Positions 4,800 through 12,266 of a stretch of 20,341 bases of DNA are shown here, piece by piece. The notes under the pieces were generated by a model. That model worked only from the letters and a program-made list of their open reading frames with translations, did no database searches and was not told the origin of the DNA. Source of the DNA: a virus; the IMG/VR virus record IMGVR_UViG_3300048580_000395, positions 1 through 20,341 of that record; one strand, given 5' to 3'. The position numbers and the translations under genes were made by a program. Every line of letters starts with the position of its first letter. The first letter of the stretch is position 1.

Positions 4800-6370
4800 A
4801 CGAATACGGCCCCTCCCTTTCGGATTTGGTTGTCGATGTTTTTGAGGAGTTCGGCGCCGCGTTCGACGCCCTTGGCCGTGCGCTCGGCCACCGAGTCGGC
4901 CCCGAGTCCGCGAACGGCGAGCGCGTTAAACGAGCCTTTGCTTTCCAGCTTCTGCTGCTCATTCCCGAGGACGACCGGCAGGTCGGGCGGCGGCGGATTG
5001 CGTTTTTCGTAGTCCGCCCGTTGCGTGGCGGCTTTGTCGCGTGCCTTGGTTAGATCGTTCTTGGCGCTCGTGAGCGCCTGTTCGCTGGCCTTGCGCTGTT
5101 GGTCGAATGCGTCCTGTCGTCGCTGTTGGTCGGTGACGAGGTCGGCGCCGAGGGCGTCCTGGCTGCCACGGCGGGTGGACTCGATGTCCTTGCGACGATC
5201 CTGCCGGCGTTTTTCCGTCTGCGCCTTTTTGTCGGTGGTCTGTTGGTCGAGGATTTCGCCGGCTCGCTTGGTTGTGTCGTCGATTTCCTTGACGCGGGCA
5301 TTGACGTCGATGTCCTCGCCGAGCCATTTGCGGAACTTCACCCACATCTTTTCCATTTCGCCGACGGCCCAGTTGAGATTTTTTGACAGGAAGCCGGTGA
5401 ACGTCAGCCAGCCCTGTTGCATGAACGCCACGGTTTCCGTCCACGCGCTTTCGACCGCGGCCCACGCGTCGGTGAACATCATGGCGACGCCGAAGACCGC
5501 GTCTTTCCACAGGTTGACGAAGAATTGTTTCGCGCTGATCCACAGTTGGTTGACGAAGTTCACCCCCTTCTGCCATTCCATTTTGATGTGGAGCCAGAGG
5601 ATTTCGGCGGCCAACTTGATATCGCCGGTGGCGAGCGCGTCGCCGATTCCCTTCCACGTTTTCAGCGCTTCGTCGTGCAGTTCGGTAAACGTGTCTTGCA
5701 GCCATTGGATGCCCTGAGCGGCGATCCCGGTGTGCTGGAGGATCACCGTTCCAAGGGCGACGGCGGCCCCGATCACGAGCCCCATTGGCGTGAGCAGGAG
5801 CGCCACGGCACTCCCGAGCATGCCGACCGCCGTGGCCACCGTAGACGCGATGCCGGCGAGCACCCCGAGCACGCCGCCAAGGCCGGCGATTCCCTTGCCG
5901 ACGACCCCGATGACGGTGCCGGCGACGACCAGAACACTCCCGATCTTGGCGATGCTTTGCACCAGCCCGCGGTTTTGCCGGACCCATGCGGCCGCCTGGG
6001 TTACGATCCGGGCCAGCGCATTGGGCCAGCGGGCCATGAGCGGCAGCACGGCCGACCCGACGGCGTCCCGCAGTTCGCCGAACGCGTTGTTGAGCCGTTG
6101 CAGGGCGTTGACATAGTTGAACACCGCGGCCGCGTCGCGCTTGTTGGCGAACCGGCCCGCCTCCAGGGCGGAGGACGCGAACGAATGGGCCATGGCCGCG
6201 AGCGGCGCGGTGATGGCGGCCCCCATGGCGGCGATCTTGGCCCCCTGCCACGCGACGGCGTTCCCGAAGTCTTTGAGCGCGACCGATGCCGACTGCAGCG
6301 GCCGGGACACCCGGTCGCGGAGCGTCAATTCGATGTAGGCGGCGCCGGCGCGGATGGCGGAGGACGACAT
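4796..6370 (-). CDS. tail tape measure protein
   Basis: A 524-residue protein that sets tail length and is ejected into the host. The N-terminus (AYIELTLRDRVSRPLQSASVALKDFGNAVAWQGAKI) is a typical tape-measure opening. Residues about 143-212 are strongly hydrophobic and Gly/Ala-rich (IGSVLVVAGTVIGVVGKGIAG, ALLLTPMGLVIGAAVALGTVIL), as membrane-inserting tape-measure regions are. A Trp/Phe-rich repeat-like middle follows (WLHIKMEWQKGVNFVNQLW, WKDAVFGVAMMFTDAWAAV), then a long charged coiled coil at about 355-470 (KKAQTEKRRQDRRKDIESTRR, QQRKASEQALTSAKNDLTKAR). At roughly 1.5 angstrom per residue the tail would be near 75-80 nm, on the short side. It overlaps the T-like frame and the following gene (ATGA). 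Confidence 0.9.
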   Translation of the reverse strand: MSSSAIRAGAAYIELTLRDRVSRPLQSASVALKDFGNAVAWQGAKIAAMGAAITAPLAAMAHSFASSALEAGRFANKRDAAAVFNYVNALQRLNNAFGELRDAVGSAVLPLMARWPNALARIVTQAAAWVRQNRGLVQSIAKIGSVLVVAGTVIGVVGKGIAGLGGVLGVLAGIASTVATAVGMLGSAVALLLTPMGLVIGAAVALGTVILQHTGIAAQGIQWLQDTFTELHDEALKTWKGIGDALATGDIKLAAEILWLHIKMEWQKGVNFVNQLWISAKQFFVNLWKDAVFGVAMMFTDAWAAVESAWTETVAFMQQGWLTFTGFLSKNLNWAVGEMEKMWVKFRKWLGEDIDVNARVKEIDDTTKRAGEILDQQTTDKKAQTEKRRQDRRKDIESTRRGSQDALGADLVTDQQRRQDAFDQQRKASEQALTSAKNDLTKARDKAATQRADYEKRNPPPPDLPVVLGNEQQKLESKGSFNALAVRGLGADSVAERTAKGVERGAELLKNIDNQIRKGGAVFV

Positions 6371-6693
6371 GGCCTTGTTGATTCCCTGGGTACGAAAATG
6401 CTTTTCAGGACCGTAATGGGGGCCGTGATCCGCTGCTCTGGCGGCGGTGGCGGGGCGTAATCGTTGAAGTCGTCATCGGTGAACGGTCGCGGGTGTGTTT
6501 TGCGGTCGCGATGGATGTTTGCGAGCACGCTGCATACGCGAGCCGTTCGTTTCCATTCGTCTCGCCTCCGTCCATCCGCCATCCAGAACAGTTCTCGGAG
6601 CGTCAGCGGCCCCGGGTTTACGCCGACGACCCCGGCGAGTTGCCAGAGGAGTTTCCAGGCGTCGGCCGCGGTGATTCGAGGCCGGTCGTTTCC
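6325..6693 (-). CDS. tail assembly chaperone T-like extension in the -1 frame
   Basis: An open frame at -1 relative to the gpG-like gene; the conserved part starts near RITAADAWKLLWQLAGVVGV and continues LTLRELFWMADGRRRDEWKR, VLANIHRD, PFTDDDFNDYAPPPPP and ITVLKSIFV. The 'LRELFWMA.GR...W' and 'N.HRD....PFT..DFN' patterns are common in small tail-assembly proteins of siphoviruses, and I take this as the T part of a G-T pair. No ATG, GTG or TTG with a ribosome site lies close before the conserved domain, so access by ribosomal frameshifting is likely. The start given here is the approximate first in-frame codon near the G/T junction, not a true start. The frame ends 46 bases inside the tape measure gene. 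Confidence 0.6.
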   Translation of the reverse strand, partial: GNDRPRITAADAWKLLWQLAGVVGVNPGPLTLRELFWMADGRRRDEWKRTARVCSVLANIHRDRKTHPRPFTDDDFNDYAPPPPPEQRITAPITVLKSIFVPRESTRPCRPPPSAPAPPTSN

Positions 6694-7115
6694 AGTTGTT
6701 CCTCGAACATCCGGTCGATCCGTGGATCCCGCAGTCGCACCGTCGCCAGTTCGCAGGCCCGCGTTCTCAGTTGCTTCATTTTCTCCCACGCCGTCCGCGC
6801 CGCTTCGCGGCGGGACGGGTGGGAAAAAGTAAAAAGCCCCTCGGCCAGTGCCTCCTCCGCGGCTTGAAGAACGTCGCCGCTCATCGCCTGACCGAACTGT
6901 TCGTCGGTGATGCCCCGGGCATCTGCGTCCGGCTTGCAGATGGCATAGAGCACGTCGACGAACAGGACGACGTCGGCCATGAGTTTCCCCATGAGGGTTC
7001 CCTCGACGAACTCCATGAGGTCGACGGAGAGGAGAGACCGGACGCGCTTGACCGTGTCGGTGCCGATCGACACAGACCAAACGCGCCCGGCCGTATCCTG
7101 GAAGGTGTGAGGCAT
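6618..7115 (-). CDS. tail assembly chaperone (gpG-like)
   Basis: A 165-residue protein. The ATG at 7115 (MPHTFQDTAGRVWSV) overlaps the tail tube stop and is preferred to an upstream ATG inside that gene. It is helical: VKRVRSLLSVDLMEFVEGTLMGKLMADVVLFVDVL, ITDEQFGQAMSGDVLQAAEEALAEGLFTFS, and EKMKQLRTRACELATVRL. The place between tail tube and tape measure and the overlapping downstream frame are those of the gpG/gpGT chaperone pair that coats the tape measure before tube assembly. The last 20 residues are Pro/Ser/Gly-rich (PTPGNSSGNSPGSSA) where the other frame begins its conserved domain, as expected if only the frameshifted form carries a structured C-terminus. Confidence 0.75.
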   Translation of the reverse strand: MPHTFQDTAGRVWSVSIGTDTVKRVRSLLSVDLMEFVEGTLMGKLMADVVLFVDVLYAICKPDADARGITDEQFGQAMSGDVLQAAEEALAEGLFTFSHPSRREAARTAWEKMKQLRTRACELATVRLRDPRIDRMFEEQLETTGLESPRPTPGNSSGNSPGSSA

Positions 7116-7622: not shown

Positions 7623-8264
7623 TCACTGAACGCTGTTGGCCCAGAATTTCGGCAGCCGGTCGAGGTTTTCCATGAGGGCCGGCCCCATGAATGGGCGTTG
7701 CGGGTAGGTGGCGACGCCGCCTTGCGCGGCGACCAGGGCGCGCACCCGGCGCTTCTCGGATTGGAGTCGCGCTTTGCGCGTGTTGCCGAACGCGTCGGGC
7801 GGCGCGGATTCGATGTACTGCACGCTCCTGTCGACCTGCGCTTGCGTTGTGAATTTGATGTAGGCCGTGCCGGCGGAGTCGCCGATGGGGCCATGGCCGC
7901 CGACGTGCAGTTCCCAATTCGTGCCGGCGGCGAGCAGGGTTTCCTTGGTTTGGCCGCGGAGCGACCGCGGCCGTTGCGTGCCGCCGTGCTCGTGCACCCT
8001 GGCCACGTCGGAAATTAGGTGGGCGGCAGGGCCGATGACCACTGTGTGGTCGCCCTCCACGGCGTAGAGGATCGAGTTTCGCAGGGCGCCGCGGCGGGTG
8101 TTTGGCGGCTGGCCCGGGTCGCTGGCCGTTTGCCGTGTGCGGATCAGCCGGCGGGCCGCAATCCGCAGACTTGCCCCGGCGTGGCCCAGGTTTTTGAATG
8201 TCGCCCGGCGCATGGCCCGGCGGACGTCTGACGTCTGGTCGACGATGGTCACCGTGGCACTCAT
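7623..8264 (-). CDS. HK97 gp10-like phage morphogenesis (tail completion) protein
   Basis: A 213-residue protein starting at the ATG in an ATGA overlap. The N-terminal helix ATFKNLGHAGASLRIAARR is followed by DPGQPPNTRRGALRNSILYAVE, VVIGPAAHL, VHEHGG and, near the C-terminus, RPFMGPALMENLDRLPKFW. 'PGQPP.T..GALR.SI', 'GP', 'HE.GG' and 'RPFM.PAL' in this order are the signature of HK97-gp10/phage virion morphogenesis proteins, which complete or terminate the tail at the head-tail joint. The protein is longer than many relatives, with an insertion around 100-170 (TNWELHVGGHGPIGDSAGTA). It is the first gene of the tail module and is followed by the tail tube. Confidence 0.8.
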   Translation of the reverse strand: MSATVTIVDQTSDVRRAMRRATFKNLGHAGASLRIAARRLIRTRQTASDPGQPPNTRRGALRNSILYAVEGDHTVVIGPAAHLISDVARVHEHGGTQRPRSLRGQTKETLLAAGTNWELHVGGHGPIGDSAGTAYIKFTTQAQVDRSVQYIESAPPDAFGNTRKARLQSEKRRVRALVAAQGGVATYPQRPFMGPALMENLDRLPKFWANSVQ

Positions 8265-8566
8265 CGGCGGCCTCCATCCGGGGCGTCGCGGCCGATCGCG
8301 TGCTGGAGTTCGCGCTGGCCGGCGGCTAGTTCGTCGAGCGTGTCCGCCTGCCGCTCCTGCGCCCGCGAGAGCGTGGAGAGCGTTTCGGACGTCGTCCGGA
8401 GAAACGCTGTGTGCGATTCCACGACCGGCACGAGGACCGTGGCGTGCAGGGCGACGGCGGCCAGCTGGCCCCAGTAGCCGAGGACGGCGAGCACGACACA
8501 CGGAAACCCGAATTCGCGGGCGATCCGCAGGCCGACGTCGACGATATCGCGGGTTTGCTGGGTCAT
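8261..8566 (-). CDS. small membrane protein with coiled coil
   Basis: A 101-residue protein starting at the ATG in an ATGA overlap. A hydrophobic stretch at about 20-48 (FPCVVLAVLGYWGQLAAVAL plus ATVLVPVV) is one long or two tight transmembrane helices. It is followed by a heptad-like segment (about 50-92) TAFLRTTSETLSTLSRAQ and ADTLDELAAGQRELQHAIG, with the spacing of a coiled coil. The shape recalls small phage membrane proteins of the lysis region, but no family is recognised. It closes the run of envelope-directed genes; the next gene is a tail protein. Confidence 0.6.
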   Translation of the reverse strand: MTQQTRDIVDVGLRIAREFGFPCVVLAVLGYWGQLAAVALHATVLVPVVESHTAFLRTTSETLSTLSRAQERQADTLDELAAGQRELQHAIGRDAPDGGRR

Positions 8567-8880
8567 TCGCTCGGCTCCAGCCAGCGTTGCACGACGATTT
8601 GCACGATGATTCCGATGGCCCACATGACGAGCATGGTGGTAAAGGCGAACCCGGATCGCTGGTCGTACTCGTCGCGGACTTGCCGCTCGACGTCGGCGAT
8701 GAGCGTTCGTTTGAGGACCGGGCCCCAGTAACGTGCGGCCAGCAGTCCGTCGGGCGCGAGCTTGGCTTGGGCAACGGTGGCGATGGCGTCGCACCGCTCG
8801 CGGCCGAGCATCGCCCGGCGGATCGGGTGCGCGGCGAGCCGTTCCCAGACGTAATCGGTGAGGTCTGGTTTGGGAGTCAT
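8563..8880 (-). CDS. small C-terminally anchored membrane protein
   Basis: A 105-residue protein whose ATG overlaps the protease stop (ATGA). The first 75 residues are soluble, helical and charged (VWERLAAHPIRRAMLGRERC, LKRTLIADVERQVRDEYDQRSG); residues about 78-98 form a transmembrane helix (FAFTTMLVMWAIGIIVQIVV) followed by a short tail. A tail-anchored layout is predicted, with the body in the cytoplasm. I do not recognise the family. Coupling to the secreted protease and to another membrane protein suggests that the three act together at the membrane, for example as holin/antiholin or export helper. Confidence 0.6.
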   Translation of the reverse strand: MTPKPDLTDYVWERLAAHPIRRAMLGRERCDAIATVAQAKLAPDGLLAARYWGPVLKRTLIADVERQVRDEYDQRSGFAFTTMLVMWAIGIIVQIVVQRWLEPSE

Positions 8881-9686
8881 TTCGCGGCGCACCTCCCGTC
8901 CGCGCAGTCCGCCCCCGGCCAGCGGACGCCGGCGAGGAACGTGCGGACCCGCGTCGAGCATGGCCCGACGGTTTCCCCCGGGTTCGCCCCGAGGAGCACG
9001 CCGGCCAAGTGCCCGTCGGCGTTGAAGATCGGTCCGCCACTGTCACCCCGGCGGGCCGTGGCCCGGCACTCGATCAGTTCCTTGGTCCCGCCGCGGCCCG
9101 GCGTCAGGTACTCCGTCAGGGCCCCCGACTCCTCGCGGTAGACGTAGGGGCGACCGCCGTAGCCGGCGATTGTCAACTGGTCGCCGACCCGCGGGGCCTG
9201 GGCCGCGATGGTCACCGGCTCGGCGGCCGGCCGGGGCACGAGGACGGCGGCGAGGTCGTAGAGTTGGTCGGTCTTGAGCACGCGTCCGGCCCCGCGCTTT
9301 CCGTCCGGCCAGTGAACCGTCAAGGAATCCTTGACGCTTCGCACGACGTGCCAGTTGGTGACCACGAGCCCATGCGATCCGCTCACCGCCACGAGGACGC
9401 CGGACCCGCCGTGCAATTCGTCCCCGACGCGGGCCTCCAGGCGGGCGACGGCCGGCCGGGGTCCGGGGGCGGCGGCGGCAACGGTTCGGGAATCCCGAAT
9501 GGTTGGCGCGGCCGGGCCGGGGGGCGGCACTGGCGTTGCCGCCTCCCCCGACCCGCCGCAGACTGGGCACGCGAACCGCACCGGGCCCGGGCCGACGACC
9601 CGGGCGCCGTGGCAGTTGTCGCACGGGCCGGCGGCGGCGATGGTGCAGGCCGCGGCGAACAGGAGCGCGAGGAACGCGGATTTCAT
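8877..9686 (-). CDS. secreted trypsin-like serine protease with DnaJ-type zinc motif
   Basis: A 269-residue protein. Signal peptide MKSAFLALLFAAACTIAAAG; then CDNCHGARVV...FACPVCGGSG, a C-x2-C...C-x2-C zinc module like half of a DnaJ Cys-rich domain (C22, C25, C40, C43); a Pro/Ala linker (about 50-80); then a trypsin-fold protease. The catalytic triad is complete: H113 in VVTNWHVV, D144 in YDLAAVLV, and S216 in RRGDSGGPIF. The C-terminal end has four more Cys-containing positions (GPCSTR, GADCADGRC). The ATG at 9686 is chosen; a GTG at 9695 overlapping the previous TGA (GTGA) would add three residues. Such HtrA/trypsin proteases are common in Planctomycetes, but a phage-encoded, exported one within a morphogenesis operon is unusual. 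Target is unknown; host envelope protein is a reasonable guess. Confidence 0.85.
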   Translation of the reverse strand: MKSAFLALLFAAACTIAAAGPCDNCHGARVVGPGPVRFACPVCGGSGEAATPVPPPGPAAPTIRDSRTVAAAAPGPRPAVARLEARVGDELHGGSGVLVAVSGSHGLVVTNWHVVRSVKDSLTVHWPDGKRGAGRVLKTDQLYDLAAVLVPRPAAEPVTIAAQAPRVGDQLTIAGYGGRPYVYREESGALTEYLTPGRGGTKELIECRATARRGDSGGPIFNADGHLAGVLLGANPGETVGPCSTRVRTFLAGVRWPGADCADGRCAAK

Positions 9687-9691
9687 GGTTT

Positions 9692-10570
9692 TCACCCGGC
9701 GGCCGGCCGGCTCCAGTCGTCGGGGAGGGTGCACGACGCGATGGCGAACGATCCCCGCCACGCGGATTTGGCGGTCCGCTCGGAGTCGTACCGCGTCAGG
9801 TCGTAGGAATCGGGGTAGGCCATGAGCCGTTGCCCGGGGATCCACCGGGCCCACGGCACCGCGTGGCCGTTGCGGCCGACGCTGACGACCATCCCGTGGA
9901 GGACACAGCACACGGCGTGTTCGTAACTGGCCGGGAAAATCACCTCCAAGGGCCGGAACAGTCGGGCGGTTTCTGCCCACCCGGCAGGGAACCGATTTAG
10001 GGCCACCCACGAATCCCCAGTTTGGTTTGCGTTGCCCCGGCCGCTGGTTCCCGCCATGGCGTGGCGGAAGCCGTATTCGGCCGGCTGGAGCCGGTCCGGG
10101 AGCATCCCGCGGCGGACGGCGATTTCGAGGACGCTGCGGACGTTGGCGCCGCCCCAGCGCTTTGGGTTGGCTTCGGCGTAGACCGACAGCGGCGACAGCC
10201 AGACCGATCCGTACTGGCCCGACTCGGCATAGCGGTAGCCGGCCCGCGGCCCGTCCCGGTAGATGACCCCGCGGGCCCGGTTGCGGGCGGCCTCTAGGTT
10301 GGCCCGGAGGGAATGGCAGGTGCATTCGTGGGTGGGCGTCTGGTTCGTGTAGCGGTCGATGCAGTTCATCGCCCACGCATTCGCCCGGTCGTTTTCGGCG
10401 GCACGTTCGGCCCACTCGCGCGGCTCGATCCACAGGGCTTCCGGGAAGTCGCGTGAGGCGTCGCCGCAGGCGTCGCGCAGGGCGTCGGTCGTGTCCTCGG
10501 CCGCGAGATGGTCGGGGTAGCCGTCGTGTTCGTCGGGAAAGACGTCGATGAGGCGCGGGTGGATCTTCAC
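9692..10570 (-). CDS. papain-like cysteine protease candidate
   Basis: A 292-residue protein (GTG start in a GTGA overlap). Several landmarks resemble the papain (C1A-like) fold: NQTPTHECTCHSLRANLE around residues 76-93, comparable to the 'NQG..SC..' nucleophile segment (C83 or C85); WLSPLSVYAEANPKRWGGAN followed by VLEIAVRRGMLPDR at 124-160, comparable to the conserved 'LSEQ...GG....A..Y....G' stretch; and GHAVPWARW at 235-243 for the catalytic His (H236), then YPDSYDL at 252-258 where papain has Asn. The Asn is not conserved, D254 being the nearest candidate. No signal peptide is seen, unlike its two neighbours. It is likely a peptidase acting on the host envelope or on virion proteins. The family call rests on motif order only. 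Confidence 0.55.
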   Translation of the reverse strand: MKIHPRLIDVFPDEHDGYPDHLAAEDTTDALRDACGDASRDFPEALWIEPREWAERAAENDRANAWAMNCIDRYTNQTPTHECTCHSLRANLEAARNRARGVIYRDGPRAGYRYAESGQYGSVWLSPLSVYAEANPKRWGGANVRSVLEIAVRRGMLPDRLQPAEYGFRHAMAGTSGRGNANQTGDSWVALNRFPAGWAETARLFRPLEVIFPASYEHAVCCVLHGMVVSVGRNGHAVPWARWIPGQRLMAYPDSYDLTRYDSERTAKSAWRGSFAIASCTLPDDWSRPAAG

Positions 10571-10950
10571 GGCACGGCCTCCATGACGGCGGCCTCGCTT
10601 GCGGGCTTCGGCGTCACCCGCAGCACGGTCTGGCCGGCCAGCGCGACGACGGCCGGGAGACCGGCCTTGCGGGCGGCCTCCAGGGCGGCGCGGTATTGGT
10701 CCGGGACGTCGCCGGACCCGTCGGTGGTGTCGTCCTCCAGGAGCGTCGCGACGATCTGCCGCTCCCGGTTGAGCCGATCGAGGGCCACGGTGACGCCGGC
10801 CGGAATCGGCCCGGAGTCCTTTTCGTAGACGTAGACCGCGGCGGTCGCCGGTCCGACGACGACGGTCCGCCGGGCGGCGCAGGATTCGACCTGCGGGACG
10901 CCTGCAAGCAGGACCAGGGCGACGGCGATGAGGACGGCGACGCGGATCAC
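10567..10950 (-). CDS. secreted protein of unknown function
   Basis: A 127-residue protein with an evident signal peptide: MIRVAVLIAVALVLLAGVP followed by QVESCAAR. The VESC could be read as a poor lipobox, so lipid attachment is possible but not convincing. The mature part reads AAVYVYEKDSGPIPAGVTVALDRLNRE, then QIVATLLEDDTTDGSGDVPDQYRAALEAARKAGLPAVVALAG. The beta-alpha-beta rhythm and the phrase 'GLPAVVAL' recall a thioredoxin-like fold without the CxxC pair, but this is a weak impression. It lies directly before the papain-like gene with a GTGA overlap and so probably works in the same compartment, outside the inner membrane. Start is GTG at 10950. Confidence 0.6.
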   Translation of the reverse strand: MIRVAVLIAVALVLLAGVPQVESCAARRTVVVGPATAAVYVYEKDSGPIPAGVTVALDRLNRERQIVATLLEDDTTDGSGDVPDQYRAALEAARKAGLPAVVALAGQTVLRVTPKPASEAAVMEAVP

Positions 10951-11186
10951 GACTGCGGGGCCTCCGGCTTCAGCAGTTCGTCGAGGAGCTTCTGGCAGAC
11001 GGCGACGGCGTCGGGCTTTCGCTGGTCGCGCAGCCGGGCGGCAAGGTCGATTACCAGTCGCAGGTCATCCACGGGGGTCCGCTCGCGGCGCGTGAGCCGG
11101 CCCCGGACCCGCTGCCAGATGAGGGCGGCGGCGTAGACGAGACAGCCGACGGCGAGGGCCACCTGGGCGTACTGGATCACGGTCAC
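10947..11186 (-). CDS. small one-pass membrane protein, holin-like candidate
   Basis: A 79-residue protein starting with GTG in a GTGA overlap. Residues about 7-24 (AQVALAVGCLVYAAALIW) form a clear transmembrane helix followed by a positive stretch RVRGRLTRRERT, predicting N-out/C-in topology. The remaining 45 residues are a charged amphipathic helix (DDLRLVIDLAARLRDQRKPDAVAVCQKLLDELLK). Size and layout fit a class III-like holin or a spanin-like helper, but neither family is recognised. The gene heads a run of envelope-directed proteins: a secreted protein, two proteases and two more membrane proteins. Function is inferred from this context alone. Confidence 0.6.
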   Translation of the reverse strand: MTVIQYAQVALAVGCLVYAAALIWQRVRGRLTRRERTPVDDLRLVIDLAARLRDQRKPDAVAVCQKLLDELLKPEAPQS

Positions 11187-11449
11187 GATCTAGCCTCCAT
11201 CTGCGCGGCGAGGGCGATGAGCAGACGGACGAGGGCCGCGCCCTCGGGCGTCCGCAGGACGGCGGCGATGTGCTTGGCGAGTTGGTCGTCGATCCGGCCG
11301 GCGGTCTGGCCGGCCGCCCACTCCAGCGCGTCGGCGACGATGTTGCCCTGCCGGCCGGCGTCGGGCTCGGCCGACCAGCGGCGTGCGAACCCGAGCAGCG
11401 GCGACCACTGGGCGAGCGTTCGGACCTGTTCGATGGTGGGCAGCGGCAT
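11183..11449 (-). CDS. hypothetical small helical protein
   Basis: An 88-residue protein of unknown function. It is predicted almost wholly helical: TIEQVRTLAQWSPLLGFARRW, then NIVADALEWAAGQTAGRIDDQLAKHIAAVL and EGAALVRLLIALAAQMEAR. There is no signal peptide, no membrane segment long enough to be sure, and no Cys. The last part, with LVRLLIALAAQ, echoes the hydrophobic helices of the previous protein (11451-11822), so the two may be related or interacting. The stop overlaps the next GTG start as GTGA. It is accepted as a gene because of the coupling on both sides and coding-like composition. Confidence 0.55.
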   Translation of the reverse strand: MPLPTIEQVRTLAQWSPLLGFARRWSAEPDAGRQGNIVADALEWAAGQTAGRIDDQLAKHIAAVLRTPEGAALVRLLIALAAQMEARS

Positions 11450-11450
11450 G

Positions 11451-11822
11451 TCAGGCCCTTACCAGCGGGAGGAGCTTTTCGATGGCCCCGGATGCGATCG
11501 CGACGACGAGCGACCGGACGGCCGGGCGGACGATCAGCCACAGCGGGTAGACCGGCGCGGGCACGGCCTTGTCGGCCACGGCATCGAACAGCCGTTCCAC
11601 CGCGCCCAAGGCGATCGCCTTTTTTTCCGCCCCGGAAAGCGTCTGGACTGAGTCGAGCGTGGTGAGCACGAGCCGCAGGAGCGACAGGAGCAGTTCGCCG
11701 AACTCCATCCAGGTCAGGCCGTCGGCGGCGGTGTCCCGGGCCTTGTTTATGAACGTGGCCACTTGGTCGGCGATCGTGGCGAACTGCGCGGCGGCGGCCG
11801 CGGGGGCATTGGTGTTGGCCAT
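11451..11822 (-). CDS. hypothetical helical protein
   Basis: A 123-residue protein I do not recognise. It starts 12 bases after the preceding stop and ends one base before the next ATG. The N-terminus is Ala-rich (PAAAAAQFATIADQVATFIN); residues about 40-60 are a strongly hydrophobic amphipathic helix (EFGELLLSLLRLVLTTL), then a charged stretch (SGAEKKAIALGAVERLFDAVADK), then a second hydrophobic stretch (PLWLIVRPAVRSLVVAIASGAIEKLLPLV). Neither hydrophobic part is a clean transmembrane segment, though together they could be membrane-active. Gene context, directly ahead of small membrane and secreted proteins, leaves a lysis or envelope role open; a minor virion component is equally possible. 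Confidence 0.55.
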   Translation of the reverse strand: MANTNAPAAAAAQFATIADQVATFINKARDTAADGLTWMEFGELLLSLLRLVLTTLDSVQTLSGAEKKAIALGAVERLFDAVADKAVPAPVYPLWLIVRPAVRSLVVAIASGAIEKLLPLVRA

Positions 11823-11834
11823 GGGTGTTTTCTT

Positions 11835-12266
11835 TTAGCGGTGGACGATGTAGGTGACGGTGAGCACGCTGGTGAACAGCCGTTTGTCCTGGAGGTGCTC
11901 CGGCGCGTAGATCGGCTGGTTGGCGATTCGGAGCCATGACGCCCCGGGCACGGTGGGCAGCGGTCGCCGGGTCAGGAAGTCGGCGATGTGCTGCACCAGT
12001 TCCATGAGCGGGTCCACTTCCTCCGGGCTCACCGCCAACAGTTTTTTCTGCACCGCCACGTCGACGGCGATTTCGTTGGCGACCCGGGAGCGGTCGGCGT
12101 TGGTGATCGTGTTGGACCGCGGCACGACGGTGACGCGGACGCCGTCCATGGCGCGGAGGTCGAGGTCCGGCAAATACCTCCGGGCGGCCGTGATCGGCGG
12201 CGAAAACGTGTGGCCGGTGAGGTCCGCGAGGATGGCGGCGGCAATGGCGGCGGCTACGGCTGGCAT
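11835..12266 (-). CDS. probable tail terminator / tail completion protein
   Basis: A 143-residue protein with ATG at 12266, inside the end of the adaptor gene. It begins with a hydrophobic Ala-rich helix (AVAAAIAAAILADL), continues with beta strands around VRVTVVPRSNTITNADRS and NEIAVDVAVQKKL, then a helix DPLMELVQHIADFLTRRPL, and ends in a strand, LFTSVLTVTYIVHR. The strand-helix-strand order, the central 'DPLMELVQHIADFL' and the closing strand are the pattern of gpU-like tail-terminator proteins that cap the tail tube where it meets the head. Position right after a head-tail adaptor fits. Similarity was judged by eye; a second HK97 gp10-like protein is encoded at 7623-8264, so the division of labour is uncertain. 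Confidence 0.55.
   Translation of the reverse strand: MPAVAAAIAAAILADLTGHTFSPPITAARRYLPDLDLRAMDGVRVTVVPRSNTITNADRSRVANEIAVDVAVQKKLLAVSPEEVDPLMELVQHIADFLTRRPLPTVPGASWLRIANQPIYAPEHLQDKRLFTSVLTVTYIVHR

Follow-up and report, generated by a model that had tools for sequence, protein, structure and literature searches.

The IMG/VR virus record IMGVR_UViG_3300048580_000395 (20,341 bases, analyzed at its full length and called the window here) carries almost every gene on its minus strand. The genes are arranged in the order terminase, portal, protease-capsid fusion, glycine-rich protein, an eight-gene cassette (8261-11822), neck, major tail, tape measure and distal tail. We consider this cassette, which combines two predicted proteases with several small membrane proteins, as a candidate module for host lysis. 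The original prediction had described six of its open reading frames, all of which are present on the minus strand, and two further genes, 11183-11449 and 11451-11822, belong to the same set (Table 1). Genes were called by a simple method. The tight coupling claimed for the six genes is also evident, since the junctions overlap by 4 base pairs (bp) or 1 bp, save for a 5-bp gap ahead of the trypsin gene. Likewise, the membrane helices described for three of the products recur among their orthologs.

Table 1. Genes of the cassette, listed from the first to the last (aa, amino acids; segments by hydropathy).
Position	Strand	Product	Basis
11451-11822	-	First cassette gene, 123 aa; hydrophobic C-terminal stretch	Syntenic in 67 loci
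11183-11449	-	Small soluble protein, 88 aa; no membrane segment by hydropathy	Syntenic in 75 loci
10947-11186	-	Small protein, 79 aa; one N-terminal membrane segment and charged helical C terminus; holin-like candidate	Segment in 73/75 orthologs
10567-10950	-	Small exported or membrane-anchored protein, 127 aa	N-terminal hydrophobic segment
9692-10570	-	Very likely papain-type cysteine protease, 292 aa; predicted Q77/C83/H236/D254	Residues invariant, 81 sequences
8877-9686	-	Exported trypsin-like protease, 269 aa from ATG; N-terminal CxxC...CxxC knuckle, triad H113/D144/S216	PF13365 and ortholog alignment
8563-8880	-	Membrane protein, 105 aa; C-terminal membrane segment	One segment in 72/72 orthologs
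8261-8563	-	Membrane protein, 100 aa; N-terminal membrane segment and helical tail; holin- or spanin-like candidate	One segment in 72/72 orthologs

The papain-type protein has 88 to 137 matching stretches of high identity in IMG/VR. The comparison across relatives that the original prediction had proposed revealed the cassette to be syntenic in ~80 IMG/VR contigs, many of them near-identical, such that counts do not equal independent events; gene order is retained in almost all. Because both gene order and sequence are kept in this set, a chance arrangement is excluded. The records are fragments or have no established completeness. The closest long relative of the window is a 37.3-kilobase (kb) contig (G002) whose gene order matches and which additionally carries replication genes, RecT, a YqaJ nuclease, CsrA and an integrase. 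The integrase marks this as a temperate phage. A CsrA homolog lies at L089:2394-2597, in the phage early region.

Three locations of the cassette can be distinguished. Window-like phages have it between 11835-12266 and the neck gene. A second backbone (G004, G007, G008 and G001) has it in the interval from an S78 prohead protease gene to the gene for the major capsid protein, and in a third backbone (G006) it follows the late genes, beside the integrase. As a separate observation, the S78 prohead protease of type II phages (L094:3138-4130, L100:38-1027 and L101:15391-16401) carries a C-terminal HAD-like extension (...SLDYDRTFTAAPGLW...).

Several observations make a papain-like assignment of the 9692-10570 product very likely. 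Residues Q77, C83, H236 and D254 are invariant across 81 sequences, and C85, H218 and H225 vary. Q77 sits six residues ahead of C83, and a structure model places a helix at residues 83-99. Distant homologs (29-33% identity, e.g., L348) show GSC, GHA and NSWG at the aligned positions. The model, which was built on an alignment with distant homologs, has a predicted local distance difference test score (pLDDT) of 62.7 and a predicted template modeling score (pTM) of 0.68. Among the predicted viral structures in BFVD, it best matches a phage "Peptidase C1A" (E 0.011, probability 0.97, at a model pLDDT of only 62.7). A PDB search with the same model gave nothing with E < 0.5, and its top matches are mostly papain-fold enzymes.

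A Pfam scan of this product returned no family, PF00112 included, and a homolog compared with PF00112 gave an E-value of 0.31, below the cut-off. On sequence, therefore, the window protein would not be counted as a member of PF00112 itself. Relative to papain family C1 (PF00112; cathepsins, bleomycin hydrolase), it has the same order and spacing of Gln-Cys-His-Asn/Asp, whereas it falls below Pfam detection, has Asp in place of Asn and is encoded by a phage gene in a membrane-protein operon. The papain-type call of the original prediction was right in view of the four invariant residues, with the correction that the papain-type protein has no signal peptide.

The trypsin-like protein is recognized more directly. 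It matches PF13365 (3.8e-21; 76.8 bits vs a cut-off of 27.6) and PF00089 (5.8e-8, above the cut-off). The complete His-Asp-Ser triad noted earlier corresponds to His113, Asp144 and Ser216, which are invariant in 73 orthologs. The four cysteines of the knuckle are likewise invariant in these orthologs, and the knuckle matches phrog_3931. A hydrophobic N-terminal segment is present. Although the protein resembles trypsin-like S1 peptidases (PF13365) in exceeding the curated cut-off and in its full triad, it differs from them in its N-terminal CxxC...CxxC knuckle and in having a papain-type gene as constant partner.

An alternative module was found in the 77-kb contig IMGVR_UViG_3300042453_002958 (G009; L105-L108), where one prophage carries a window-type cassette and another beyond it carries the alternative. 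In this alternative module, a homolog of 11451-11822 and a membrane protein accompany a papain that is anchored in the membrane (QGPHGSC...NHC...NSWG), together with additional small membrane proteins. The 11451-11822 gene is therefore common to both modules; its homolog opens the alternative module, and in a chromosomal prophage the homolog L261:17767-18420 precedes it. The alternative papain has ~590 matching stretches in IMG/VR. We also observed that the prophages of this contig are arranged in tandem, with a repeated integrase-early-head-tail order, and that neighbors have common heads and a different tail and lysis-like module.

The two modules appear to be exchangeable. The alternative module uses two of the cassette's slots, one adjacent to the capsid gene and one adjacent to the integrase. 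Among 52 type II capsid loci with enough upstream sequence, identified with a capsid profile built from module-bearing contigs, 23 have the window-type module and 29 the alternative, and none has both or neither. Moreover, the two papains never co-occur across 350 fetched, partly redundant loci. With the alternative-family profile, the 60 best PDB matches are all papain-family structures (best E 2.4e-4), including protein-cutting cathepsins, ficin and bleomycin hydrolase. Close kinship of the two papain families is not claimed, since direct profile-profile comparison between them is weak. A search of a phage collection returned no relative of either papain. An N-terminal membrane anchor is present in some alternative papains and absent in others. 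Anchored and cytoplasmic versions parallel signal-anchor and classical endolysins.

The trypsin gene does not follow this exchange. In the same 350 loci, it occurs only with the window papain-type gene and never with the alternative papain. In alternative modules, the gene that follows the papain often encodes an exported thioredoxin (L263:17715-18275, PF13899 7.5e-8; L266:8692-9777, PF00085 3.6e-6). The protein at this position in G313 and G403 also has a CxxCxG...C knuckle, like that preceding the window trypsin domain. These results argue against the trypsin as the main agent, a part that the original prediction had allowed it, because it is tied to the papain-type gene, is missing from the alternative module and has a thioredoxin in its place elsewhere. 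Most likely, the trypsin is an accessory to a papain-type lysis enzyme. In planctomycete genomes, the proteins L266:8692-9777, L267:9122-9823 and L269:8730-9056, encoded after the papain gene, are exported or lipoprotein-like and carry the CxxCxG...C knuckle, in some cases together with a thioredoxin domain.

The planctomycete host proposed in the original prediction is supported by prophages with these modules in Planctomycetota genomes. The sole match in a species-genome collection is a contig of a Planctomycetaceae metagenome-assembled genome whose right flank is bacterial (amine oxidoreductase, MFS/acyltransferase). Of 392 Planctomycetota genomes searched, 11 had a match to the alternative papain profile and 3 to the window-type profile. 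Five genomes with one common terminase (E < 1e-200) carry either module directly upstream of TerS/TerL, the window type in G341 and G219 and the alternative in G347, G135 and G353. The IMG/VR records L405, L407 and L408 repeat this module-before-terminase layout.

In these chromosomal prophages, the genes around the papain encode a small protein anchored at its N terminus, another that is exported and a helical-tailed membrane protein. For example, L348:8311-8577, which lies ahead of the papain gene in a planctomycete prophage, resembles 10947-11186 in architecture, as L348:8565-8966 resembles 10567-10950, and L348:10516-11124, between the papain gene and TerL, resembles 8261-8563. A weak homolog of 8563-8880 is also present in a planctomycete prophage (L267:8536-8853, E 8e-4).

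Phage lysis modules would be expected to include a peptidoglycan hydrolase, and the original prediction had recognized none. Pfam likewise identifies none among the cassette proteins. The same holds for the near-complete relatives scanned (G002, the type II and type III genomes and the chromosomal prophages), where all called proteins and the open reading frames in uncalled stretches were covered; in two of these scans, the absence applies among the matches listed (best 25 families). A six-frame search of 13 virus records gave no PF01510, PF00959, PF01464, PF08291 or PF00877, with positive controls. An endolysin elsewhere in the genome was accordingly set aside as a candidate. Another candidate, the c38/c39 pair near the integrase (a tiny membrane protein and an HExxH protein), was rejected as the real lysis pair because it is restricted to window-type phages. 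At L090:14078-14897, beside the integrase and in window-type phages only, a 48-aa membrane protein adjoins a metallopeptidase-like protein with an HEYMH motif. PHROGs gives the module proteins no function beyond protease and one weak thioredoxin match.

We consider it probable (about 60%), from sequence comparisons, that the cassette serves a temperate planctomycete phage as its module for host lysis, with a papain-type enzyme in place of the classical endolysin. Lysis is favored because the cassette is present throughout its clades, forms a coupled part of the late operon, is portable and is swapped as a unit for a module of similar function. It is favored further because the module is placed before the terminase in chromosomal prophages, is rich in small membrane proteins and comes with no recognizable peptidoglycan hydrolase. 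The coupled genes occur in positions typical of lysis genes, either before TerS/TerL or at the late-gene end near the integrase; in the window's own backbone they are among the head genes.

If the cassette acts in lysis, the papain-type protein, which lacks a signal, would be synthesized in the cytoplasm, and one of the small cassette membrane proteins would release it across the inner membrane. It would then cut a load-bearing peptide structure of the envelope, which might be envelope proteins, wall-anchored proteins or wall peptide cross-links. The exported 10567-10950 product and the knuckle-containing trypsin would assist in taking apart the periplasm and the layers outside it. The place of the trypsin is taken by a secreted thioredoxin in other planctomycete prophages, as would suit disulfide-linked proteins. 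The thioredoxin could serve in the opening of such proteins, or equally could keep the papain cysteine reduced. The lytic role, the substrate and the choice of holin among the membrane proteins are all inferred.

Several points weigh against a proteolytic lysis module. Neither Pfam nor PHROG places any cassette membrane protein in a known family of holins or spanins. A position among head genes, as seen in two backbones, is unusual for lysis genes, and the more distant phages L409 and L410, which have the chromosomal-type terminase (48% identity), carry neither module upstream of TerL. A divergent hydrolase may exist beyond the reach of Pfam, or one may lie outside records not established as complete. 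In an older view, cited in PMC2754498, the planctomycete sacculus consists of disulfide-bonded protein. Because Planctomycetes contain peptidoglycan that is sensitive to lysozyme (PMC4432640), the argument of the original prediction from a protein-rich envelope is weak, and proteolysis alone might not suffice for exit. The papain-type enzyme could therefore be a peptidoglycan cross-link peptidase. Lysis would then be ordinary, with the papain-type protein as an unrecognized endolysin that cleaves stem or cross-link peptides and the trypsin as accessory, and this would agree with the failure of the searches to turn up any other hydrolase. The papain fold is also used by peptidoglycan endopeptidases such as NlpC/P60 and CHAP enzymes. 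However, PF00877 had no match in six frames, the relatives have the C1-type Q-x5-C, His and NSWG motif, and the PDB matches of the alternative family are to protein-cutting enzymes. An endolysin of this kind is rather unlikely.

The location of the cassette among head and neck genes, in the window and in type II phages, would also fit a module for virion morphogenesis or injection, whose proteases mature or travel in the particle and whose membrane proteins act at entry. A role in prohead maturation is disfavored because the phages encode their own prohead proteases, either a protease-capsid fusion or S78. In addition, the trypsin is exported, and the cassette moves between unrelated backbones and is outside the head genes in some, so that we regard a virion function as improbable. 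The exported and membrane proteins, in temperate phages with integrases, could instead modify the envelope during lysogeny (superinfection exclusion or a change of the host surface). Such a function is very improbable for a module that, unlike optional lysogeny genes, is universal in the tested clade (52/52) and tightly coupled in the late operon.

The proposed proteolytic lysis has parallels in known systems. Like the holin-endolysin-spanin cassettes of dsDNA phages, the module couples small membrane proteins to an enzyme with or without a membrane anchor, is portable and mosaic and often lies beside the terminase. It differs in having no peptidoglycan hydrolase, no known holin or spanin family, eight genes and two proteases. 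Methanogen phages lyse their hosts with the cysteine endopeptidases PeiW and PeiP (PMC4592898, PMC2989375), which by their description are similar in that a phage-encoded cysteine endopeptidase acts as the lysis enzyme and the cell wall attacked is an unusual one. These differ in having archaeal hosts and the pseudomurein isopeptide bond as target. To our knowledge, no coupled trypsin or thioredoxin accompanies PeiW or PeiP.

No account of planctomycete phage exit was found in the literature searched. Two exchangeable protease modules, which recur across hundreds of contigs as well as in planctomycete chromosomes, provide a concrete candidate for this step. If correct, the module would represent an undescribed bacterial lysis strategy centered on a C1-type protease and would bear on the old dispute about what holds the planctomycete wall together. 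It could also yield tools for breaking open these hard-to-manipulate bacteria and a marker for assigning viral contigs to Planctomycetes. More tentatively, and with considerable doubt, planctomycete tailed phages might generally exit by proteolysis, using a C1-type papain and an exchangeable secreted trypsin or thioredoxin to dismantle a disulfide- or protein-stabilized envelope without a peptidoglycan hydrolase.

Outside the cassette, we observed a conserved open frame at 6325-6660 on the minus strand of the window that has no good start of its own. No clear slippery heptamer was found there in the frame expected for a -1 shift. The open frame overlaps the end of 6618-7112 in another frame, lies just upstream of the tape measure gene and resembles a G/GT-type frameshift product.

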